Shown piece by piece: positions 35,760 to 54,003 of a stretch of DNA of 64,000 nucleotides. The stretch comes from Pseudomonadota bacterium. Lineage in GTDB: Bacteria; Pseudomonadota; Gammaproteobacteria; Steroidobacterales; Steroidobacteraceae. Each line of letters opens with the position of its first letter. The first letter of the stretch is position 1. The stretch covers positions 62,001 to 126,000 of the forward strand of contig JAKAXA010000007.1 of assembly GCA_021816775.1 (NCBI GenBank), given 5' to 3'. Both the position numbers and the translations under genes were made by a program. Under the pieces are notes generated by a model. It worked only from the letters and a program-made list of their open reading frames with translations. It did not search any database and was not told the origin of the DNA.

Positions 35760-35775
35760 TGCAAGCAGTATGCCA
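35760..35775 (-). promoter_or_regulatory. Sigma54 promoter of the aldehyde dehydrogenase operon
   Basis: On the minus strand TGGCATACTGCTTGCA: a -24 GG and a -12 GC exactly 10 bases apart, with the TGGCA and TTGCA blocks intact. Transcription would start about 12 bases downstream, leaving about a 30-base leader before the ATG at 35720. Confidence 0.85.
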
Positions 35776-35826: not shown

Positions 35827-35871
35827 GTTGCGGTACGCAACGTTGCGATGTGCCGAAACGGAACAGTTGCG
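35827..35871. promoter_or_regulatory. GTTGCG palindrome and repeats, likely enhancer
   Basis: GTTGCG-GTA-CGCAAC (35827-35841), followed by GTTGCG at 35842-35847 and 35866-35871. It sits 50-100 bp upstream of the sigma54 promoter, between it and the divergent activator gene, the usual place for activator binding sites. The rest of 35721-36107 holds no gene. Confidence 0.6.
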
Positions 35872-36107: not shown

Positions 36108-38051
36108 ATGAGAGACGACGCCGCTGCCTTGCCATCGGCAATCCGAGTGGGCGAGGCGGCGCCCGCAGCCGACCGCGCCACGGTGGTCTCGCTGTGGCAC
36201 GAGCGGGCGCGCCGGCTGGGATTGAGCGAGCGGCTGCGCCCCGATTTCAGCGCGCTCAGCCGCCGCGCGCTCGGCGAGCTCGCCGAGCGGCACCGGGCGC
36301 TGTACACGCATGCGCTGCCGGTGATGGAGCTGCTGCACCAGCAGATTCTCAATACCCACAGCATGGTGCTGCTGACGGATGAGCGCGGTCTGGTCATGCA
36401 CACCGTGGGCGACGGGGACTTCCTGCGCAAGGCGGAGCAGGTCGCCCTCAAGCCGGGGGTGCTGTGGTCCGAAGACAGCAAGGGCACCAACGCCATCGGC
36501 ACGGCTTTGACCGATCGGCGCGCGACGCTGGTGCACGGCGGGGAGCACTTCCTCACCGTCAACCGCTTCCTCACCTGCTCATGCTGTCCGATTCGCGGGC
36601 CGCGCGGGGAGCTCCTCGGCGCGCTCGATGTGTCCGGGCCGGAGGAAGGCTATCACCCGCACACCATGGGGCTGGTGCGCTTCTCGACGCACATGATCGA
36701 GAATCAGCTGTTCATCGGCGAGTTCAGCCAGGCCCTTCGCATTCACTTCCACGTGCGCGCGGAGCTGCTCGGCACGCTGCTCGAGGGCATCGTGGCATTC
36801 GACGAGAGCGGCCGGGTGCTGGGCGCCAATCCCAGCGCGCAGTCACTGTTCGGTCTCGAGGCGCAGGGCGTCACGGGACACTCGCTCACCTCGCTGTTCG
36901 ACATCGACGTGCCGGCCCTGCTCGAGCAGCGCGGCGCAGCGGGCACGGTGGCGCAACTGACGCTGCGCAGCGGGCAGGCGGTGCTGGCGCGCATCGAGCC
37001 CTATGCGCCGCTCCGCCGCGGCACGGGACCGGCCGCCGCGCGCTGCGCGCCGGAGGAATCCGCCCGCCGCGCCCCCGAGCCGGCGGGCGCGCGCCAGCGC
37101 GCCCCGACGCTTGCCGACCTCGACACCGGCGACCCGGCGGTCGCCGCGGTGATCGGCAAGGTCCGCGTGGTGCAGGGCCACGCCATCCCGATCCTCATTC
37201 TCGGTGAGACCGGCACCGGCAAGGAGCTCCTGGCGCACGCGGTCCACAACGAGTCCGAGCGGCGCACCGGTCCGTTCGTGGCCGTCGATTGCGCCTCGCT
37301 GCCCGAATCGCTGATCGAGGCGGAGCTGTTCGGCTACGAGGAAGGCGCGTTCACCGGGGCGCGCCGCCGCGGCGCCCCGGGCAAGATCCTCCTCGCCGAC
37401 GGCGGCACGCTCTTTCTCGATGAGATCGGGGATATGCCGCTCGCGCTGCAGACCCGATTGCTGCGCGCGCTGCAGGAGCGCTCGGTGCTGCCGCTCGGGG
37501 CGAGCAAGGAGCGCCCCGTCGATTTCGCGGTGATCTGCGCCACGCACCGCGATCTGAAGGACATGATGCGGCGCGGGACATTCCGCGAAGACCTCTATTA
37601 CCGGCTGAATGGTCTGATGGTGCGGCTGCCGGCGCTGCGCGAGCGGCAGGACCTCGAGGCGCTCATGGAGCGGATCCTGCGCGCGCAGGGGGTGCCGGTG
37701 CCGCGCTTCGCGCCCGAGGTGCTGGCCGCATTCCACCGCTACCACTGGCCGGGCAACATCCGCCAGCTCACCAATGTCCTGCGCACCGCGGGCGTGCTGG
37801 CCGGGCCTGCCGGACAGATCGGGCCGCAGCAGCTGCCCGAGGACTTCCTCGATGACCTGCCGGCCGCGCCTGATGGGTCCGCGACGCCCGCCTGTGCGCG
37901 CGGCGGGAAGGAGGACCTCAAGGCGCTGCGCACGGGCGCAGTGGCGGCAGCGCTGCAGCGCACCGCGGGGAACATTTCGGCGGCGGCGCGCGCGCTCGGC
38001 GTCTCGCGCAACACCGTCTACCGCGCGCTCAGATCCACCCGCTCACCGTAG
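36108..38051 (+). CDS. AcoR-like sigma54-dependent activator
   Basis: A 647-aa activator: N-terminal GAF-like sensor (about 75-190, with DSKGTNAIGTAL and LTCSCCPIRGPRGELLG), a PAS-like segment (about 215-310), an AAA+ domain (about 335-570) and a Fis helix-turn-helix (NISAAARALGVSRNTVYRAL). The AAA+ part is complete: LGETGTGKE (Walker A), EGAFTGARRR (sigma54-contact loop), GGTLFLDEIGDM (Walker B) and FREDLYYRLNG. The family senses acetoin, alcohols or aldehydes. It is divergent from the aldehyde dehydrogenase, which carries a sigma54 promoter and is its probable target. Its stop overlaps the convergent pqqU-like gene by 9 bases. Confidence 0.92.
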   Translation: MRDDAAALPSAIRVGEAAPAADRATVVSLWHERARRLGLSERLRPDFSALSRRALGELAERHRALYTHALPVMELLHQQILNTHSMVLLTDERGLVMHTVGDGDFLRKAEQVALKPGVLWSEDSKGTNAIGTALTDRRATLVHGGEHFLTVNRFLTCSCCPIRGPRGELLGALDVSGPEEGYHPHTMGLVRFSTHMIENQLFIGEFSQALRIHFHVRAELLGTLLEGIVAFDESGRVLGANPSAQSLFGLEAQGVTGHSLTSLFDIDVPALLEQRGAAGTVAQLTLRSGQAVLARIEPYAPLRRGTGPAAARCAPEESARRAPEPAGARQRAPTLADLDTGDPAVAAVIGKVRVVQGHAIPILILGETGTGKELLAHAVHNESERRTGPFVAVDCASLPESLIEAELFGYEEGAFTGARRRGAPGKILLADGGTLFLDEIGDMPLALQTRLLRALQERSVLPLGASKERPVDFAVICATHRDLKDMMRRGTFREDLYYRLNGLMVRLPALRERQDLEALMERILRAQGVPVPRFAPEVLAAFHRYHWPGNIRQLTNVLRTAGVLAGPAGQIGPQQLPEDFLDDLPAAPDGSATPACARGGKEDLKALRTGAVAAALQRTAGNISAAARALGVSRNTVYRALRSTRSP

Positions 38052-42570: not shown

Positions 42571-43821
42571 TTAGAAGCTCAAAAACAGGCCGGCGTTGAT
42601 GTTCCAGCTCGAATTCTTCTGATCCGCGTCATTGGTCGACTGAATCCGGCTGACTTCGCCGACGAGCAGCAGATCCTTGGTGAGGTGGTGGTAGACGCCT
42701 GCGGTCCATTTGTTGTTCATCTCCACGAGCAGACCGTTGGCGCGATCCAGTGCGGTCGGATCGAGCTTGCTCTCGCCATAGTTGATGCCGTACTTCGTCT
42801 GCCCGTACGTGTAGGTCACCTGCGCGATGAAGCCCTCGGAGCCGCGCGGATGGCCGAACGAGTCGTTCGACAGCACGAAAAGGCCGGTTGTGCCCACGCC
42901 GCTGCCGCGGTAGTACCAGCCCATGAACTGGAAGGGGCCCGCGGTGTACTTGCCCCCGAGATCTAACGCGGCGCTGCTGTACTGCAGGTAGCTCGCGCCG
43001 ATGGAGCAGGCGGCGACGTTCAGCGACGGATCGGCGCAGTCGAGGCGCTGGCGCTGGTACAGGCCGCTCGCCGACAGATACAGGTTGCCGATGGTATAGG
43101 TGGCCTTGGCCTGAAATCCGGGAGTGGAGTGGTTGGCCGGCACCTGCCCGAGGGTGTTCAGGGGGTCGAAGATACCCACGGTCAGGTTGGCGCCGCTCAC
43201 GGTCGGCGTCGTGTAGTCGATCTGCGCGAGCCAGTCGGTGTAGATGTAGCCAAGCCCGATCGAGCCGAGCGAGGTATTGGCCGGCGCGGCGTAGTTGCCG
43301 TTGCCGGCGCCCACCCCGAGGAGGGTCATGTCGTTCAGGATCGCATCGGAGGCGAACAGGCCGATGTTGCGCCCGGCCATGATGGTGCCGAACTCCTTGT
43401 TGCCCACCGTGAGGAACGCCTGGCGGACATCGAGGCCGGCGGTGCCGAGCGCGGTGTGGCCGTAGTTTCCGCTGCCCACCTGCAGATTCGGGCTGCCGCC
43501 GTCGTTGGTGCTGATGCCCGGGTACAGGCCGAATGTGAACGCGATGTCGTAGCCGTTCTGGACGGTGGATCCGCCGATGGTCAGGGCTGCCGGCAGCAGG
43601 CCGTTCGAGACCGAGGAGGAGCTATCGCTCGCCACACAGGCCAGACCGCCGTCAACCACCGACGGATGCTTCTCGCACTGCGAATAGATGTAATGCGCGT
43701 TGACGTTGCCGTCGAACGACAGTTTCCATTTTCCGGCCTTGACGCTGATGGCATGGGCCGCTGGCGCGCACAGCGCGGCACCCATGACGGCGGCAAGGAC
43801 AGTGGCTTTGCGGAATATCAT
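42571..43821 (-). CDS. Outer-membrane porin
   Basis: A 416-aa beta-barrel protein with a signal peptide (ATVLAAVMGAALCAPAAHA) and a C-terminal WNINAGLFLSF with the terminal Phe needed for barrel assembly. Repeated amphipathic strands (GNYGHTALGTAGLDVRQAFL; NLYLSASGLYQRQ; YTYGQTKYGINYGE) match general porins. Start at 43821. A strong sigma54 promoter precedes it, so it is likely induced with alcohol catabolism and admits the substrate. Exact selectivity is unknown. Confidence 0.88.
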   Translation of the reverse strand: MIFRKATVLAAVMGAALCAPAAHAISVKAGKWKLSFDGNVNAHYIYSQCEKHPSVVDGGLACVASDSSSSVSNGLLPAALTIGGSTVQNGYDIAFTFGLYPGISTNDGGSPNLQVGSGNYGHTALGTAGLDVRQAFLTVGNKEFGTIMAGRNIGLFASDAILNDMTLLGVGAGNGNYAAPANTSLGSIGLGYIYTDWLAQIDYTTPTVSGANLTVGIFDPLNTLGQVPANHSTPGFQAKATYTIGNLYLSASGLYQRQRLDCADPSLNVAACSIGASYLQYSSAALDLGGKYTAGPFQFMGWYYRGSGVGTTGLFVLSNDSFGHPRGSEGFIAQVTYTYGQTKYGINYGESKLDPTALDRANGLLVEMNNKWTAGVYHHLTKDLLLVGEVSRIQSTNDADQKNSSWNINAGLFLSF

Positions 43822-43862: not shown

Positions 43863-43878
43863 AGCAATTGCCGTGCCA
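43863..43878 (-). promoter_or_regulatory. Sigma54 promoter of the porin gene
   Basis: On the minus strand TGGCACGGCAATTGCT, a near-perfect -24/-12 element (GG-N10-GC). It would give a leader of about 30 bases before the ATG at 43821. Confidence 0.9.
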
Positions 43879-43971: not shown

Positions 43972-44155
43972 TGTCACGCTTCCGGAACATCAGGCGCCGT
44001 CGAATGCGGCCCCGGCGCGTTTGCCCCGCCCACGGGAGGGTCTCCCCGGGCACACTAGGCCGTCGATCAGCGGACAATGGGCGCGCGGCGGTGTTTCAAT
44101 GCGTGACACTGTCACGCCGAGAGATGACACACCTGGCGCAGCGCCGAGGTGACAC
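43972..44155. promoter_or_regulatory. TGTCACGC palindrome and TGACAC half-sites
   Basis: A perfect 17-bp palindrome GCGTGACA-C-TGTCACGC lies at 44101-44117. Further half-sites: TGTCACGC at 43972-43979 and TGACAC at 44125-44130 and 44150-44155. It lies between the porin promoter and the short activator gene, so it may be the activator's own binding region, serving both genes. Confidence 0.6.
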
Positions 44156-45282: not shown

Positions 45283-47226
45283 TCAGCGCCTGACCGGCAG
45301 CGTGATGCGCAGCCGCCGCAGATTGCGGTACAGCGTGTTGCGCCCGATGCCGAGGGAGTGCGCGACGCGGCTGAGATTGCCCTGATACAGCTCGATCTCG
45401 TGCAGCAGCGCGCTGCGCTCGGCCCGCTCGAGGGGATTCAAGCTCTTGGCTTCCTCCGGGAGCGCATCGTCCGCGTGCACTTCGCCGGCCCCGTATTCGG
45501 CCGGCAGGCAGCCCGCATCGAGCTGGTTGCTCGAGCGCATGGCGATCATGCCGCGCAGCACGTTGCGCAACTGGCGGATGTTGCCCGGCCAGCTGTACGC
45601 CTTGAGCGCATCGACCATGTCCTCACCCATGGTGACGGCGGGCGTGGCGGCGCACTCCTGCGCAAAGATGTGGCGGATCACGGCCGCCTTGTCCTTGCGC
45701 TCGCGCAGCGGCGGCAACGTGAGCACCAGGCCCTGCAGCCGGTAGAAGAGGTCTTCGCGCAACTCGCCACGCTGCACCTTGTCGTGCAGATCGCGCCGGG
45801 TGGCGCTGACCAGCTGCACATCGATGCGCGCGGCCTCCTTGGCCGCGGTTGCCGGCAGCGTGCGCTCCTCGATCACGTGCAGCAGCTGCGTCTGCAGAGA
45901 CGGCGGCAGCTCGCCGACATCGTCGAGGAACAGCGTGCCGCCATTGGCCTGAAGGATGCGGCCGTGGATCTGCTCGGCCGTCGCGCCCGCAGGTGCGGCG
46001 CCGGCGGCGGGCGGCTCGCAAGCCGGCTGCGTCTCGCTCACGGAGCCGCAATGCACCGTGACGAAGGGCTTCTCGGCCCGCTCGCTCGAGGCGTGCAACG
46101 CCCGCGCGAAGCACTCCTTGCCGGTTCCAGACTCCCCGATCAGCAGGATGGGAATGTCGCGCGAGAGCGTGCGGCGGGTGGCCTGAATGTTGCGGGCCAT
46201 CACCGGGTCGCCGAAGTCCAGCTCCTCGAGCGGCCCGCGGTTGGGGTCAAGATGCGCCGGTGCCGAGCTCTGCGCGCCGCGCGGCTTGCCGCCGCGTTTG
46301 GTCTGCGGGGCCTGCGCGATGGCGAATACCCGCCCGCCGTGGCGGGCGTCGTAGAGGGTGAGGGGGTGGAAGGACTTGCGCTGGCTGCGTGCCAGCAGCG
46401 CGCAGAGCGAGACGGTGAATACCCGCTCGAGCGGGGCGCCGAGCAGCTCGGCGGAGTGCTGCAGCCCGAGCTGGAACAGCGCGTTGCGGTCGAGCGCGGT
46501 GATGCTGCCGGCGCCATCGAGGGCGATGATGCCCTCGCCCCAGGTGCCGAGCAGCTCCGGGCGGCTGTGGAAGCGCACCACGAACGCGTCGCGGAAGTGA
46601 TGCAGGAACAGCCGGTTCTCGATCATCTGCGCGGCCATGTTGACCAGCACCAGCGTGTGCTGCTGGGCACGGTCGGACTCCCCTGAGGCATCGAGCACCG
46701 CGATCAGCTCGCCGCGATGATCGAAGATCGGCGCGGCGCAGCAGGTCAGGCCGCTGTTGCGCGCAAAGAAGTGCTGCTCGCGGTGCACGATCAGCGGCGT
46801 GCGCTCCACGAGGCAGGTGCCCATGCCGTTGGTGCCGCCGTGCTGCTCGTCCCACATCGCCCCGAGCACCAGCCCGGTGCGGAAGGCGGCGTTGCGGAAG
46901 CTGAAATCCCCATAATAATCGAGCAGGACGCCGTCGCGGTCGGTGAGAATGATCGAGTAGCCCGAGCCGGCGAGCTGGTGGTACAGGTGCGCCATCTCGG
47001 CATCCGCGAGCGCCAGCAGATCATGGTTGCTCTCCTTGCGCTCAAGACGCTCCTGGCGGGGCAGAACGTACGGCTCGCGCTCGGACTGGGGGTCGAGGTG
47101 GTACTCGTTCAGGCAGCGCAGCCACGAGCGCCGGATGTACTCCGGGGCGTCCGAATCGTCGTGCCGCAGCGAGTTGCGCGGCGCTGCCAGCGAGTGACGG
47201 TGACGGTTATCGGTTGCGCGCAGCAT
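45283..47226 (-). CDS. AcoR-like regulator without the GAFTGA loop
   Basis: A 647-aa protein built like the AcoR family: GAF sensor (about 70-190, with TNGMGTCLVER and LTCCAAPIFDHRGEL), PAS-like segment, AAA+ domain and Fis HTH (NLSRVAHSLGIGRNTLYRNL). The P-loop GESGTGKE is kept, Walker B is GGTLFLDDVGEL (Asp in place of the usual Glu), and LREDLFYRLQG is kept. The segment that should hold ELFGYxxGAFTGA is replaced by a Pro/Ala-rich linker (ACEPPAAGAAPAGATAEQ). It therefore should not remodel sigma54 polymerase alone. The start at 47226 follows a purine-rich ribosome binding site. Confidence 0.88.
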   Translation of the reverse strand: MLRATDNRHRHSLAAPRNSLRHDDSDAPEYIRRSWLRCLNEYHLDPQSEREPYVLPRQERLERKESNHDLLALADAEMAHLYHQLAGSGYSIILTDRDGVLLDYYGDFSFRNAAFRTGLVLGAMWDEQHGGTNGMGTCLVERTPLIVHREQHFFARNSGLTCCAAPIFDHRGELIAVLDASGESDRAQQHTLVLVNMAAQMIENRLFLHHFRDAFVVRFHSRPELLGTWGEGIIALDGAGSITALDRNALFQLGLQHSAELLGAPLERVFTVSLCALLARSQRKSFHPLTLYDARHGGRVFAIAQAPQTKRGGKPRGAQSSAPAHLDPNRGPLEELDFGDPVMARNIQATRRTLSRDIPILLIGESGTGKECFARALHASSERAEKPFVTVHCGSVSETQPACEPPAAGAAPAGATAEQIHGRILQANGGTLFLDDVGELPPSLQTQLLHVIEERTLPATAAKEAARIDVQLVSATRRDLHDKVQRGELREDLFYRLQGLVLTLPPLRERKDKAAVIRHIFAQECAATPAVTMGEDMVDALKAYSWPGNIRQLRNVLRGMIAMRSSNQLDAGCLPAEYGAGEVHADDALPEEAKSLNPLERAERSALLHEIELYQGNLSRVAHSLGIGRNTLYRNLRRLRITLPVRR

Positions 47227-47323
47227 GACTTGCCCCCCCTTCAGCCGTCGCGGGGGAATTATGCGCCGGCCGCGGTGCCCCGCAAGGCGCAAGGGTCAAC
47301 TTTGGCACAGCTTACCCCAATAG

Positions 47324-47340
47324 TGTTCCGAATCGGGACA
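47324..47340. promoter_or_regulatory. Imperfect palindrome upstream of frmA
   Basis: TGTTCCGA-A-TCGGGACA, 7 of 8 positions paired, about 110 bp before frmA and 98 bp before the divergent GAFTGA-less regulator. It may be an operator shared by the two. Confidence 0.45.
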
Positions 47341-47449
47341 ATGGCGCCGCAGGGGTGCATCTGGCGCACCTCGGATGGGAATTTGTCTTTCCCGCCCGCG
47401 TAGACTCCGGCCCCTGGCCCATCGGGCCCCGACACACGCGAGCATCGTC

Positions 47450-48559
47450 ATGAAATCAAAAGCCGCCATTGCCTATCAGGCAGGCAAACCGCTTGAAGTG
47501 GTGACCGTGGACCTCGAGGGCCCGAAGGCCGGGGAGGTGCTGGTAGAGATCAAGGCGAGCGGGGTGTGCCATACGGATGAGTTCACCCGCTCCGGGGCCG
47601 ATCCGGAGGGACTGTTCCCGGTGATCCTGGGGCACGAGGGAGCCGGGGTGGTGGTGGACGTCGGCCCCGGCGTCACCTCGGTAAAAAAAGGTGACCATGT
47701 GATTCCGCTGTACACGCCGGAGTGCCGCCAGTGCAAGTCGTGCCTCTCGCGCAAGACCAACCTCTGCACGGCCATCCGCGCCACGCAGGGCAAGGGGCTG
47801 ATGCCCGACGGGACCAGCCGCTTCTCGCTCGAGGGGCGCATGGTGCACCACTACATGGGCTGCTCGACGTTCTCGAACTACACGGTGCTGCCGGAGATCG
47901 CGGTGGCGAAGATCCGCGAGGACGCCCCGTTTGAGAAGGTGTGCTACATCGGCTGCGGGGTGACGACGGGGGTGGGAGCGGTGATCAACACCGCGAAGGT
48001 GGAGCCCGGGGCGAACGTGGTGGTCTTCGGGCTCGGAGGGATTGGGCTGAATGTGATTCAAGGGGCGCACCTGGTGGGTGCGAACAAGATCATTGGCGTG
48101 GATGTGAACCCCAAGCGCAAGGCGCTGGCGGAGCGCTTCGGGATGACGCACTTTGTCAACCCGCGCGAGATCAAGGAGGACCTGGTGGCGCATCTTGTGG
48201 CTCTGACCGATGGGGGAGCGGATTACAGCTTTGAGTGCGTGGGCAACGTCGATCTGATGCGCCAGGCGCTGGAGTGCTGCCATCGCGGCTGGGGCGTGTC
48301 GGTGGTCATCGGGGTGGCGGGGGCGGGACAGGAGATCAAGACCCGGCCCTTCCAGCTGGTGACCGGGCGGGTGTGGAAGGGCACGGCCTTCGGCGGGGCG
48401 CGCGGTCGCACCGATGTGCCGAAGATCGTCGACTGGTACATGGACCACAAGATCCGCATCGATGAGCTGATTACGCACGTCATGCCCGTCGAGCGCATCA
48501 ACGATGCGTTCGACCTGATGCACCGCGGCGAGTCGATCCGCTCGGTCGTGACCTTCTGA
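47450..48559 (+). CDS. frmA: S-(hydroxymethyl)glutathione dehydrogenase (class III alcohol dehydrogenase)
   Basis: A 369-aa zinc enzyme oxidising the glutathione-formaldehyde adduct to S-formylglutathione with NAD. Catalytic zinc: [10 protein letters not shown] and LGHEGAG. Structural zinc: [15 protein letters not shown]. Rossmann fold: [16 protein letters not shown]. Start at 47450 is the family start. gfa follows 35 bases later, giving a formaldehyde-handling operon. frmB/fghA, the next enzyme, is not in the window. It protects the cell from formaldehyde made during methanol oxidation. Confidence 0.95.
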
Positions 48560-48594: not shown

Positions 48595-49167
48595 ATGGCT
48601 ATCTCGATTCATCCGGCGGTCGACCATGGCGTCAAGCCGGGCAGAGCGGATTTCGCGGGCGGCACGCTGGTGTGCCGCTGCGCCACGGATCCTGTGAAGG
48701 TGCGCATCGGCGCCAACGTTGCCTTCGATCACGTCTGCGGCTGCACGAAATGCTGGAAGCCGAAGGGCGCGCTGTTCTCCCTGGTGGCGGTGGTGCCGCG
48801 CGAGAAGCTGAGCGTCATCGCCAACGCGCAGAAGCTGAAAATCGTCGATGCGAGCGCCGTCATCCAGCGCCACGCGTGCACCGGCTGCGGCGTGCACATG
48901 TACGGGCGCATCGAGAACAAGGATCACGCGTTCTACGGGTTCGATTTCGTGCATCCGGAGCTGCTGCAGGAGAGCGGCTGGGCGGCCCCGGAATTCGCCG
49001 CGTTCGTCTCCTCCATCATCGAGTCGGGATTCCCGCCGGCACGTATGGGCGAGGTGCGCGCGCGCCTGAAGGAGCTCGGACTCGAGCCCTATGACAGTCT
49101 CTCGCCGGCGCTGATGGACGCGATCGCGACCCACACGGCCAAGCAGAAGGGAACGCTGGCGGCGTGA
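48595..49167 (+). CDS. gfa: Glutathione-dependent formaldehyde-activating enzyme
   Basis: A 190-aa zinc protein of the Gfa family, reported to speed formation of S-hydroxymethylglutathione, the substrate of FrmA. Zinc Cys clusters: [15 protein letters not shown] and [20 protein letters not shown] lies upstream of the ATG. It lies in an operon with frmA. Some work attributes binding rather than catalysis to this family. Confidence 0.93.
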
Positions 49168-50087: not shown

Positions 50088-50177
50088 ATGAGTTATCAGT
50101 TCCGATGCTTGGCCGCCGAGGCGAGTGCGCTCGCCAAGCCGGCAGCGATCTCGTTCTCACAAAAGGGGGACATATGA
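50088..50177 (+). CDS. 29-aa leader peptide before the PQQ dehydrogenase
   Basis: An ATG at 50088 preceded by TTGGAGGGG opens a 29-codon frame (MSYQFRCLAAEASALAKPAA...) whose TGA overlaps the dehydrogenase ATG (ATGA at 50174-50177). The excellent ribosome binding site and exact overlap suggest translational coupling or a regulatory leader. It has no likeness to PqqA (no Glu...Tyr pair). It could instead be a chance frame in the mRNA leader. Confidence 0.55.
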   Translation: MSYQFRCLAAEASALAKPAAISFSQKGDI

Positions 50178-52087
50178 AATTCCCAAATTGGCGCTGGCTA
50201 GTGGCGCCGGCATCGATCCTCTTGGCAGCGGGCATCGTGGCCTGCGGAGCGGCTTCGGTTGCCCAAGCCGGATCAGGATCGGATGCGCAGATCATGAAAA
50301 TGAGCGCAAACCCGGATCTCTGGCCGGCGATGGGCCAGAACTTCGCGCTCGATCGGCACAGTGATCTGTCGCAGATCAATACCCACAACGTGCAGCACCT
50401 GCAGATGGCCTGGGCGCAATCGCTCGGCACGTTGCGCGGCCAGGAAGGCCAGCCGATCGTCGTCGACGTCGGCGGCACGCCGATGATGTACTTCGTCAGC
50501 GGCTGGCCGAACATCGTTCAGGCTTTGAACCTGACGCATCCGGATCATCCCGTCGAGGTCTGGAACTACGTGAAGAAGACCGGTCGGGATCTCTCGGCCG
50601 TGGCGCGCGCCTGCTGCGATACTGTCAATCGCGGCCTGAACTATGCCGACGGCAAGGTTCTCTTCAACACCCTCGATGGATACCTGATCGCCCTCGACGC
50701 CAAGACCGGCAAGGTGGATTGGGAGGTCAAGCATGCCTGGCCCGCCAAAGGCCAGACCGTGACCAACGCCCCGCTGATCGCCGATGGCAAGGTGATCGTC
50801 GGCTTCGGTGGCGATGAGTTTGCGGCGCGGGGCGAGATCAAGGCCTATGATCTGCAGACCGGCAAGCTGCTGTGGAAGTACTGGGACAACGGCACCGACG
50901 CGCAGGTCGGCTTCACGCCCGCGACGAACAAATGGAATCCCCAGTACGGCACCTACGGGCATAAGCTCGGCCTGACCTATCCCGGTGACGAGTGGAAGCG
51001 CGGCGGCGGAGCGGCATGGGCGTGGTACAGCTATGACCCGCAGCTGAAGCTTTTCTACTACGGATCGGGCAATCCCGGCCTCTGGAGCCCCTCGTATCGT
51101 TGCGGCGCCAATCCGCCCACGCAACAGTCCTGCAACGACGGCAAATGGGACAACAAGTGGTCGATGACCATGTTTGCCCGCAGCGTCGTCACGGGCAAGG
51201 TGGTCTGGGCGATGCAGATGACCCCGTTCGATCAGTGGGACTATGACGGCGTCAACGAGCCGATCCTGGTCAACATGAAGATCGGCGGCAGGATGCAGAG
51301 GACGCTCGTGCAGTTCGATCGCAACGGCTTTGCCTATGTCTGGAATCGGCGGACCGGCACGCTTCTGGCGGCGCATAAGTTCGTCTACGTGAACTGGGCG
51401 GAGAAGGTGAACCTGCATACGGGCCGCCCCGTGAAGGTTTACGCACACTCACCGCTGCTGGTCAACCAGATGGCCCAGGCCTGCCCCTCGGCGATGGGCG
51501 GCAAGGACCAGCAGCCGGCGTCCGTCAATCCGGCGGACCCGGAGGTGTTCTTTGTCCCGACCAACAACTGGTGCATGCAGGATACGCCGCAGCCGCGTAC
51601 CGACATTCAGCAGGGTCTGGTCTACGTCTTCGCCAACGTCTACATGTATGAGCACAAGCCGGGCATTGCGGGCCGGCTGAAGGCATACAACGTGGTGACG
51701 GGGCAGACGCTGTGGAATATCCCGGACAAGTACCCGAACTGGAGCGGCACACTGAACACCAACGGTGGTCTGGTGTTCTACGGCGACCTGGGCGGATATT
51801 TCCGGGCGGTCGATGCCAAGACCGGCAAGATCCTCTGGGAGCGTAAGCTCGGGTCGGGCATCATCGGCAATCCGATCAGCTGGGCGGTCAACGGACGGCA
51901 GTTCGTGTCGATCTTTGCCGGCATCGGCGGCTGGATCGGGTTGCCTGTGACGGCGGGCCTCGATCTGAACGACAAGTACGGTGCGATCGGAGCCACGGCA
52001 ATGGCCAAGGCTACGCACCTGAACCTGATTCCTCAGGGTGGCACGCTGTACACCTTCAGCCTGCCGAAGGGCTCTGCAGGAATGTGA
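50174..52087 (+). CDS. PQQ-dependent methanol/ethanol dehydrogenase, lanthanide-type
   Basis: A 637-aa periplasmic quinoprotein with a signal peptide (SILLAAGIVACGAASVAQA) and an eight-bladed propeller. The PQQ-site vicinal disulfide is C147-C148 (RACCDTVNRG). Metal ligands probably are E215 (GGDEFAARG), N300 (GSGNPGLW) and catalytic D356. Two residues on is D358 (QWDYDGVN): XoxF, ExaF and PedH have Asp here and use lanthanides, while MxaF has Ala. It oxidises primary alcohols and passes electrons to a cytochrome c. AGGGGG lies 7 bases before the ATG. The chain is longer than MxaF or XoxF by about 35 residues, with extra sequence around 310-330. Confidence 0.92.
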   Translation: MKFPNWRWLVAPASILLAAGIVACGAASVAQAGSGSDAQIMKMSANPDLWPAMGQNFALDRHSDLSQINTHNVQHLQMAWAQSLGTLRGQEGQPIVVDVGGTPMMYFVSGWPNIVQALNLTHPDHPVEVWNYVKKTGRDLSAVARACCDTVNRGLNYADGKVLFNTLDGYLIALDAKTGKVDWEVKHAWPAKGQTVTNAPLIADGKVIVGFGGDEFAARGEIKAYDLQTGKLLWKYWDNGTDAQVGFTPATNKWNPQYGTYGHKLGLTYPGDEWKRGGGAAWAWYSYDPQLKLFYYGSGNPGLWSPSYRCGANPPTQQSCNDGKWDNKWSMTMFARSVVTGKVVWAMQMTPFDQWDYDGVNEPILVNMKIGGRMQRTLVQFDRNGFAYVWNRRTGTLLAAHKFVYVNWAEKVNLHTGRPVKVYAHSPLLVNQMAQACPSAMGGKDQQPASVNPADPEVFFVPTNNWCMQDTPQPRTDIQQGLVYVFANVYMYEHKPGIAGRLKAYNVVTGQTLWNIPDKYPNWSGTLNTNGGLVFYGDLGGYFRAVDAKTGKILWERKLGSGIIGNPISWAVNGRQFVSIFAGIGGWIGLPVTAGLDLNDKYGAIGATAMAKATHLNLIPQGGTLYTFSLPKGSAGM

Positions 52088-52209: not shown

Positions 52210-54003
52210 ATGTCTGCAATGCCAAGATTTGGCCGCTGCGCATTGTCGGCGGTCGTGCTTCTGATCACCACCGTTGTCGTTTCGCCCGCATTCACTGCAA
52301 GCGCCGCAGCCCAGTCGGCGGACAGCTCGTCCGGTCTGGTGGGCCCCTGGGCCGGCAAGGATTTCAACCAGCTCGATCAGGCGGAGAAGGATGCGGCCAA
52401 ACAGGCCGCCCTCACCGCGCATTTCCGCGTCCTGCGCGTCTGCGCGGACCCCGGCAACATGCCGCTCTCCGATCGCAAAAGGCAGGGATACGAGAACAAG
52501 ATTCTCCAGGTGCTCGCCACGGCGATGCACGCCCGGCTGAGCTACTACTGGCGCGCCTACACGGGAGACATCGTCGGCCAGGCTTTCGGCACCAGTGACG
52601 AATGCGACCTGCTGATCGACATGCCGGTGCACGCGGCGGGGATTCTGCCGACGATGCCGCTGTACCGCACGACCTACGTGCTCGTGTGGCGCAACGATGA
52701 GCACCTCGCGATCAAGAGCCTGAGCGACCCGGCGCTGAAGAGACTGCGGCTCGGGGTGTTCCAGATTTCGGCATTGCGCCAGGCGCTGCAGAACCATGGC
52801 GTCTATCAGAACGTGAAGGTCTGGGTCGTGCACAACGACACGGCATGGAATCCGGCGCACCAGCCCTGGCGTCAGGTGCAGGAGGTGGCGCAGGGCAAGC
52901 TCGATGTGGTGGGCGCATGGGGACCCATGGCCGGGTGGCTGAAGACCATGAAGGACGAGCCGATCACCATCCAGCCGACCAATCTGATGGACAATTCGGT
53001 GCCGATGGAATTCAGCCTCGCGATCGCGGTGCCGCCGAGAGACGTGGTGCTCAGGTATGCGCTGAACGATGCGCTGAAGGCGAATCGCGCCGCGATTGGC
53101 AAGATCCTGCGCGAGTACGGCGTGCCGCTGGTGCAGTGTCCCAACTGTCTGATTGCCGGCAATCTGCCGGCGCACGGCAGCTACATGCTGGCGCACTCGG
53201 TGGATGACCGCGGCGCAAAGCCCACCCACTGGACCGTCTCGCGTGCGCAGGTCAAGCGCTGGCTCGCCGAAGGGTCGAGCGTCAACAAGGAGCTCTATGA
53301 CGCGGTACTTGCCAATGACGTGTCGCGCGCGGCCTACCTGATCAGCAAGGGCGCCGACGTCAATAAATTGACCCATCTCGGCAACTCGCCGCTCATGACC
53401 GCAGCCCGCGCCGGGTGCGTGCCGATGATGCGGCTGCTGGTCGCGCATGGGGCGAACGTCAATCTGCCCGACGCCGGGGGTTCGAGGCCGCTCTACGGGG
53501 CGGTGCTGCGCAACCGGGCGCCGGCGATCCAATTCCTGCTGGCGCACGGCGCGAGCGTCGCGAAGGCGGCGCCGCGCGGCTACTCGCTCCTGACGCTCGC
53601 CATAGAGGAGCAGCAGTTTGATGCCGCCTATGCGCTGATCAAGGCGGGGGTGAACGTGAACGCCCCCGGAAGCAAGTACCGGCTGACGCCGCTCATGATC
53701 GTCGCGAGCGACCGGCCGCGGCCGATGGGCAGCCGGCTGCGGTTTGTGCAGGTTCACGGGCCGATGAGCATTGCGCGCGCACTGATCGCCCATAAGGCGA
53801 ACGTCAACGCCACCGACTCCCAGGGGGTCACCGCGCTCATGATCGCGGCCGCGCACGATAATTCCCCCATGATCGGCCTGCTCATCCAGGCGGGTGCGAA
53901 TGCCCGGATGAAATCGGCGGCGGGCCAGACCGCCCACGATATTGCGGTCAGCGACGACAATCTCGGCGCGACGCGCATCCTCGACATGCTTGCCCGGCCG
54001 TGA
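52210..54003 (+). CDS. XoxJ/MoxJ-like binding protein fused to ankyrin repeats
   Basis: A 597-aa exported protein. Signal peptide: ALSAVVLLITTVVVSPAFTA. Residues about 72-330 match the quinoprotein-dehydrogenase-associated periplasmic binding family (LRVCADPGNMPLSDRKRQGY at about 75-94; LLIDMPV; TYVLVW), as in MoxJ/XoxJ, which help form active dehydrogenase. From about 350 to 595 come five or six ankyrin repeats (DVSRAAYLISKGADVN; LMTAARAGCVPMMRLLVAHG; LMIAAAHDNSPMIGLLIQAG). The usual family member ends before this point. CPNC at 310-313 may form a disulfide. The ankyrin part could hold the dehydrogenase or cytochrome in a complex. Confidence 0.88.
   Translation: MSAMPRFGRCALSAVVLLITTVVVSPAFTASAAAQSADSSSGLVGPWAGKDFNQLDQAEKDAAKQAALTAHFRVLRVCADPGNMPLSDRKRQGYENKILQVLATAMHARLSYYWRAYTGDIVGQAFGTSDECDLLIDMPVHAAGILPTMPLYRTTYVLVWRNDEHLAIKSLSDPALKRLRLGVFQISALRQALQNHGVYQNVKVWVVHNDTAWNPAHQPWRQVQEVAQGKLDVVGAWGPMAGWLKTMKDEPITIQPTNLMDNSVPMEFSLAIAVPPRDVVLRYALNDALKANRAAIGKILREYGVPLVQCPNCLIAGNLPAHGSYMLAHSVDDRGAKPTHWTVSRAQVKRWLAEGSSVNKELYDAVLANDVSRAAYLISKGADVNKLTHLGNSPLMTAARAGCVPMMRLLVAHGANVNLPDAGGSRPLYGAVLRNRAPAIQFLLAHGASVAKAAPRGYSLLTLAIEEQQFDAAYALIKAGVNVNAPGSKYRLTPLMIVASDRPRPMGSRLRFVQVHGPMSIARALIAHKANVNATDSQGVTALMIAAAHDNSPMIGLLIQAGANARMKSAAGQTAHDIAVSDDNLGATRILDMLARP

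Follow-up and report, generated by a model that had tools for sequence, protein, structure and literature searches.

Several bEBPs have no proper GAFTGA motif. TyrR, DhaR, HupR, VpsR and YplP are described in this way, and for the first three dependence on sigma70 is stated (PMC3162934). The NtrC proteins of Caulobacter and Rhodobacter capsulatus are likewise GAFTGA-less, with a deletion in loop L1, and are described as acting at sigma70 promoters; in R. capsulatus NtrC the binding of ATP is of importance, and in Caulobacter NtrC the Walker A and B residues are (PMC10274813). A second group of described systems consists of paralogous bEBPs that act together as hetero-oligomers, namely HrpR/HrpS, FleQ/FleT and VnfA1/VnfA3 (PMC9542535, PMC11999139). 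FleT is without regulatory and DNA-binding domains (PMC7175178), and none of the three pairs, as these sources present them, joins a loop-less sensor with a sensor-less motor.

Within the window, by which we mean the whole 64,000-nucleotide stretch analyzed here, we followed up a regulator (P0001) that by its sequence is a variant of the known GAFTGA-less regulators (TyrR, DhaR, HupR, NtrC). It differs from the GAFTGA-less NtrC proteins, which are receiver-domain response regulators, in having a GAF sensor, and no sensor-less paralogue is reported alongside NtrC in the available text of the source. Escherichia coli DhaR, which controls dhaKLM, is alike in the absence of GAFTGA and in being divergent from the operon, as P0001 is from adhC-gfa. 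Its NCBIfam profile (NF008485) is the best profile for P0001, at 264.9 bits against a cut-off of 551, and spans P0003 over 56–642. DhaR is 22% identical to P0001 and 24%–25% identical to the GAFTGA-bearing relatives compared, and its loop loss was thus likely independent. Moreover, its Walker B reads LFLEK with neither arginine finger at the aligned place, whereas P0001 keeps both fingers. The sub-cut-off score and the direct comparison with the E. coli K-12 protein led us to reject the identification of P0001 as DhaR itself. The preliminary description of this DNA had likened P0001 to TyrR; this is fair as a statement of function, but DhaR is closer in architecture and has the best profile, though below cut-off. 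With AcoR/BmoR-type sigma54 activators, family names assumed for its relatives in a tree built without an acoR reference sequence, P0001 probably shares domain order, the PAS-like middle domain being placed by position only, and its tree position is beside GAFTGA-bearing regulators; it differs in its absent L1 loop and its Walker B Asp-Asp. Among the matches listed, the open-access literature contained neither an AcoR-type GAFTGA-less regulator of formaldehyde genes nor a sensor-less/loop-less bEBP pair.

A regulator without the sigma54-contact loop

The features of the locus are collected in Table 1. The P0001 frame is open throughout (647 aa plus stop), with Pfam matches to GAF (residues 69–206), Sigma54_activat (341–501), AAA lid (508–585) and HTH_8 (599–638). 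The domain order is GAF, middle domain, AAA+, lid and Fis HTH; the middle domain is PAS-like by position only, with no PAS match in Pfam. As first described, the sensor, the P-loop (Walker A) and the Fis HTH are kept, while a Pro/Ala linker replaces the GAFTGA segment and the Walker B Glu has become Asp; these two changes were read in the translation and in 66 of 66 loci. Residues ∼394–424 read ...CGSVSETQPACEPPAAGAAPAGATAEQIHGR... without GAFTGA, and Walker B reads LFLDD. An AlphaFold2 model (mean pLDDT 77.5, pTM 0.50) keeps the AAA+ fold, with residues 398–415 disordered, and the best 50 matches listed in a fold search were generic AAA+ proteins only (NtrX, ZraR, FleQ, PspF, VpsR). P0001 has the AAA+ fold, Walker A, R-fingers and sensor II of a sigma54-dependent bEBP and no GAFTGA-type L1 loop. 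Having lost the loop and kept the DNA-binding domain, it resembles by sequence the sigma70-acting GAFTGA-less bEBPs, and would be predicted to share their sigma70 activity.

Table 1. Features of the P0001/P0002 locus and of the comparator P0003, in window coordinates
Feature	Position	Strand	Basis or remark
P0003, full AcoR-type bEBP with GAFTGA, comparator	36108..38051	+	Pfam, alignment
Gene behind the sigma54 promoter	42571..43821	−	Porin-like by eye; likely start 43821, listed start 43917 too far upstream
Sigma54 promoter TGGCACGGCAATTGCT before the porin-like gene	43863..43878	−	Own scorer, 9.9 of 9.9
Composite site TGTCAC-N6-GGAAC	43972..43988	+	93 bp from sigma54 promoter
TGTTTC-N5-GTGACA site before P0002, possibly autoregulatory	44092..44108	+	Pattern reading
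P0002, sensor-less bEBP (AAA+ with GAFTGA, lid, Fis HTH), convergent with P0001	44149..45255	+	Pfam, alignment
P0001, loop-less AcoR-type regulator, 647 aa	45283..47226	−	ORF translation, Pfam, AlphaFold2
Walker B Asp-Asp of P0001	45919..45924	−	Residue table; DE in 65 other rows compared
Ala/Pro linker replacing the L1/GAFTGA segment, codons ∼394–424	45955..46047	−	Alignment; pLDDT < 50 at 398–415; dN/dS ∼0.4
−10-like CATAAT of P0001	47258..47263	−	By inspection
Half-site GGCACA	47304..47309	+	GATACA, GGTACA or GACACA in orthologues
17-bp palindrome TGTTCCGAATCGGGACA, putative P0001 operator	47324..47340	+	Intergenic alignment, genome pattern search
−10-like TAGACT of adhC, no recognisable −35	47401..47406	+	By inspection
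adhC/flhA, S-(hydroxymethyl)glutathione dehydrogenase	47450..48559	+	TIGR02818 over cut-off; conserved ATG; listed ORF begins 47375
gfa, S-(hydroxymethyl)glutathione synthase	48595..49167	+	TIGR02820 over cut-off
PQQ-dependent methanol/ethanol-family dehydrogenase, same cluster	50105..52087	+	TIGR03075 over cut-off

The loop loss is not owing to a missing sigma54, as the genome has one rpoN match. Nor did we conclude from the Glu-to-Asp change that the ATPase is dead: PspF E108D, although its ATPase is reduced, is reported to match the wild type in activation on duplex DNA and, when part of linked dimers, to favour pre-opened DNA (PMC4132715). The GAF domain also contains an adjacent Cys162-Cys163, a candidate site for thiol chemistry with formaldehyde. 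All 18 loop-less proteins in the alignment have this pair, and three of four sister proteins have Cys-Ser.

GAFTGA was absent and LFLDD present in all 66 orthologous loci (24 distinct segments), which were taken as those matching the region at 60% identity or more. Many of these loci overlap or derive from genomes that are close relatives or identical, which makes the counts of loci non-independent. Their linker regions range from 10 residues shorter to 28 longer than that of the window. Orthologues were found at 65%–98% identity across 150 family genomes, 58 genus genomes and a named genome collection. In a sample of 396 genomes of the order, those at 65% identity or above were confined to P0001's own genus, which speaks against a wider distribution of the clade within that sample, and the loop-less loci that could be placed in genomes belong to one genus. 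The 66 concordant loci and the intact orthologue frames, with no internal stops in the 17 orthologues tested, rule out a sequencing error or assembly artefact. We looked for an intact GAFTGA at the same locus in close relatives and found none.

In a tree of 84 AAA+ domains, from which eight redundant or short rows had been dropped and whose bootstrap had not fully settled, the 21 loop-less rows formed one clade (support 100/100, stem 1.06) that joined regulators with GAFTGA from other species in the genus and family (support 99/95). A conserved clade thus shares the deletion, the check that the preliminary description had proposed, and the sequences indicate that the loop was lost once, within the genus as far as sampled. 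Residues at key positions agree: the motif is missing from 24 of 24 clade rows (the window protein being entered twice), and GAFTGA, GSFTGA or GAFTDA is present in the 65 other rows. The residue table omits L012 and the fragments L050 and L055, which lie at contig or locus ends (one shows GAFTGA, one stops short). Orthologues with a long linker that splits the domain match (e.g., L058, L061) are included in the 66-locus reading and not in the tree or residue table. Walker B Asp-Asp, the sensor I Arg, and intact R-fingers and sensor II were each found in 24/24 clade rows, Walker A was kept in every row having the letters, and the switch Asn was replaced by His in 11/11 rows of the near subclade and 5/13 of the far subclade. 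The missing loop, together with the retained ATP-site and R-finger residues, suggests that sigma54 contact was given up and that the nucleotide-binding and ring-forming parts were retained.

Two further loop-less cases were noted. On another contig of the same genome (C40), L012 encodes a divergent NtrX-like bEBP without GAFTGA and with an apparent receiver domain in front; Caulobacter NtrX is likewise described as GAFTGA-less (PMC10274813). One metagenome-assembled genome has two loop-less paralogues (L065, L068, L070, L073). Their contigs are interrupted around the part that codes for GAF, and exactly 127 bases are identical at every break; the paralogues share identical DNA there, which suggests that the sensor underwent gene conversion.

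The adhC-gfa promoter region and its sister loci

Wherever adhC was on the same contig stretch, the P0001 orthologue was divergent from it, in both the near and far subclades. We take adhC-gfa to serve glutathione-dependent formaldehyde oxidation. Three N-terminal pieces of second copies (L069–L071) had no adhC in the adjoining sequence, and each has TGTTCC-N6-GRTACA in its own promoter. In the PQQ dehydrogenase cluster, the product of 52210–54003 (+) has C-terminal ankyrin repeats and an N-terminal half that is periplasmic-binding-protein-like by eye, with no Pfam match for that half.

We aligned 23 intergenic regions, some of them from near-identical genomes, over the palindrome TGTTCCGWATYGGRACA (with variants), the half-site and the two −10-like elements, which were assigned by inspection and are predictions only. 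The half-site lies 23 bp from the palindrome center on the P0001 side in 23/23 regions. The distance from the palindrome center to the −10 element was 65–68 bp for P0001 and 67–69 bp for adhC, each in 21 of the 23; in the remaining two (L060, L063) the adhC −10 is 103 and 71 bp away and the P0001 −10 pattern had no match. No adhC −35 candidate exceeded 4/6 bases. The 23 regions contained no conserved sigma54 (−24/−12) site between P0001 and adhC. A sigma54-like score above 95% of shuffles was reached in three (L060, L061, L063), at non-aligned places, using a sigma54 consensus, our own weights and mononucleotide shuffles.

We then compared the occurrence of the putative operator across genomes, using patterns of our own making. 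Within the genome of P0001, the window's copy is the only perfect match to the palindrome consensus; allowing up to two mismatches, the consensus was found in three places, as was a backwards control. A looser pattern gave 24 sites in 23 of 58 genus genomes, against one of 58 for the backwards control. Twenty of the 24 sites were directly before adhC, with P0001 on the other side in 18; the other two, having no neighboring P0001, imply that the site goes with adhC. The pattern preceded adhC in 17 of 23 loop-less genomes and was found in none of nine genomes with the GAFTGA sister regulator. The six loop-less genomes without it before adhC are G102, G157, G166, G171, G184 and G185, of which at least G102 has a variant there. 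Operator-like palindromes were also seen away from adhC, at L146, L159, L162 and L164 in genomes G158, G102, G181 and G183.

The sister regulators provide a view of the other side of the loss. Both P0003 and P0002 keep GAFTGA and LFLDE; the preliminary description had stated that its two sister proteins keep the loop, without mention of the fact that P0002 has no GAF sensor. Upstream of P0003 are a sigma54-like site (35760–35775, minus strand; score 8.6, with 1.1 such matches expected in the window) and the palindrome TGTGCCGAAACGGAACA (35849–35865); facing the gene to the left, they are possibly P0003's own target. In the sister group the regulator belongs to a gene series, or a version of this series, made up of a porin-like gene, the PQQ dehydrogenase, the binding-protein/ankyrin gene, cytochrome c, the regulator itself, gfa and adhC. 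Eight of 10 sister loci have sigma54-type promoters (scores 9.1–9.9 of 9.9), located ahead of the porin-like gene or the dehydrogenase or, three times, ahead of adhC; this adhC is 62%–64% identical to that of the window and may be another copy. The two loci with no such promoter (L137, L138) both start within or close to the gene run. Loop loss thus goes with a changed gene arrangement and, by sequence, a changed promoter type.

The combination of −10-like elements, a palindrome and no conserved sigma54 site at adhC-gfa, set against the sigma54-type promoters of the sister loci, favors sigma54-independent action. Our main reading, to which we give a probability of roughly 0.6, is that P0001 is an AcoR-type regulator that belongs to a lineage in which the loop was lost once in the genus, and that it now acts independently of sigma54 on the divergent adhC-gfa operon. 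Like every functional statement made here on the P0001/P0002 locus, it is drawn from sequence. The GAF domain would sense a C1 metabolite (formaldehyde, S-hydroxymethylglutathione or an alcohol). In the presence of ATP, P0001 would form an oligomer on the palindrome and the half-site, some 80 bp ahead of the adhC start, and recruit the housekeeping polymerase to the −35-less adhC promoter; the P0001 promoter may be a further place of action. P0002 would be responsible for the sigma54-driven output of the locus, namely the porin-like gene. Several observations count against this reading: the kept Walker A, R-fingers and sensor II, which suggest that the assembly of a ring is still of importance, whereas DhaR apparently needs none; the three regions with sigma54-like scores; the six genomes without the operator pattern; the second copies without adhC; and four genomes in which the loop-less gene is directly upstream of the porin-like gene, with the sigma54 promoter intact. 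Furthermore, the palindrome could serve repression or autoregulation only. The preliminary description had proposed that P0001 may repress, act with sigma70, or act only through a partner; the promoter region favors sigma54-independent action, which may be activation or repression. For the partner, the loss of the P0002 sensor in the same genus speaks indirectly in favor, and four of 23 genomes with the loop-less protein and no P0002 speak against.

P0002 and the sigma54 promoter of the porin-like gene

P0002 had no Pfam match to a GAF sensor. In the AAA+ tree its lineage nests inside the full-length regulators: two members (L037, L096) are full-length, five (L088, L092–L095) have an in-frame N-terminal remnant, and the other in-genus members have none, indicating a stepwise loss of the GAF sensor in the same genus as the P0001 loop loss. 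A stop flagged in two P0002 matches (G172, G139) was not found in the aligned part on re-reading. All 25 loci scanned (20 sensor-eroded, five full-length) have a sigma54-type promoter that is directed away from the regulator; our scorer expects 0.05 matches of 9.2 or more in 64 kb. The porin-like gene had no Pfam or NCBIfam match.

Where P0002 loci contain the composite site, its distance upstream of the sigma54 promoter is 84–97 bp. By script the site was present in 26 of 30 in-group loci, including two without P0002 in which it is farther away and reversed, and in zero of nine outgroup loci; at L065 the script picked another promoter and the site was read by eye. The promoter and the composite site at fixed distance occurred together in 17 of 58 genomes, all with P0002, and in none for the control.

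Across the 58 genus genomes, P0001 was found in 23 (at least 65% identity) and P0002 in 22 (at least 66%), with both in 19, P0001 alone in four, P0002 alone in three and neither in 32 (Fisher 1e-8, shared descent ignored). Fragments in G183 and G182 would add to the loop-less count of 23. The genomes with P0002 alone may be read in light of their assemblies: G183 shows the end of P0001 at a contig edge, the contig of G167 ends inside P0002, and G153 is 77% complete. In the four with P0001 alone (G038, G119, G162, G171) the loop-less gene is directly upstream of the porin-like gene and the sigma54 promoter is intact; these look like real exceptions to the pairing. Judged by gene content, the pair is associated, not obligatory.

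These observations raise a second reading, a mixed ring by which the porin-like gene's sigma54 promoter would be driven, with P0001 as its loop-less, sensing subunit and P0002 as its motor without a sensor. P0001 would give arginine fingers, DNA binding and signal control, and P0002 the sigma54 contact. We consider this possible but less likely than not. It would account for reciprocal losses within one genus and for the co-occurrence in 19 of 58 genomes, and R-fingers, which act between subunits, are kept in P0001. The composite site appears to join TGTCAC, also found before P0002, with the GGAACA/TGTTCC of the P0001 operator; its distribution (in-group against outgroup, and with the promoter only in genomes with P0002) fits, and the TGTTCC-N6-GRTACA of the three loop-less second copies has the spacing of the composite site. 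The known paralogous hetero-oligomers offer a precedent. On the other hand, the half-sites were assigned by eye and one protein might read both, and the composite pattern alone occurs three times in its own genome against once for the control. The TGTTCC half-site is seen in two of nine outgroup promoters, and only five of those nine belong to the P0002 lineage. The P0001 and P0002 genes are non-adjacent in the more distant subclade, and the four genomes without P0002 retain the sigma54 promoter, three of them with the composite site.

Sigma54-independent control of adhC-gfa, the best supported of the readings, is compatible with such a mixed ring at the sigma54 promoter. That a bEBP was split by reciprocal loss, and that P0001 both regulates adhC-gfa independently of sigma54 and is the signal subunit of a mixed ring at the porin-like gene's sigma54 promoter, seems to us doubtful.

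Repression, decay and constraint

A third reading, which we consider unlikely, is that P0001 is a DNA-bound repressor or anti-activator that occupies the divergent region, and perhaps the porin-like site, until a ligand releases it. The half-site on the P0001 side of the palindrome is in keeping with this, and there are parallels: the TyrR paralogue PhhR is reported to stand in for TyrR as a repressor (PMC3162934), and Caulobacter NtrC to repress some sigma70 promoters (PMC10274813). At ∼67 bp from each −10 element, however, the palindrome falls beyond the footprint that is usual for a core promoter, and adhC lacks a −35 by which it could be active with no activator.

Selection differed along the protein, as estimated with our own script. 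Mean dN/dS was 0.03 for GAF and 0.43 for the linker between near-clade pairs, 0.02 and 0.40 between far-clade pairs, and at most 0.23 in every domain except the linker. GAF identity is 98% within both subclades and 88% between near and far; in the latter comparison the remaining domains reach 55%–74% and the linker 28%. That P0001 is a degenerating paralogue heading for a pseudogene, as the relaxed linker, the long AAA+ stem and the replaced switch Asn might suggest, is very improbable: purifying selection on the domains outside the linker already contradicts it, and so do intact frames (17 of 17) and an operator and synteny conserved across the clade.

The GAF sensor of P0001, probably linked to C1 metabolism, is under unusually strong constraint. 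The published GAFTGA losses that we met in the literature, as their sources present them, concern single proteins; here the loss can be placed on a tree in which the sister group is intact, the neighboring promoters can be compared on both sides of it, and P0002 appears as a mirror-image loss with intermediates in living lineages. Two questions thereby become testable: in what way an AAA+ activator switches sigma factor, and whether a division of bEBP rings into sensor and motor subunits is possible.
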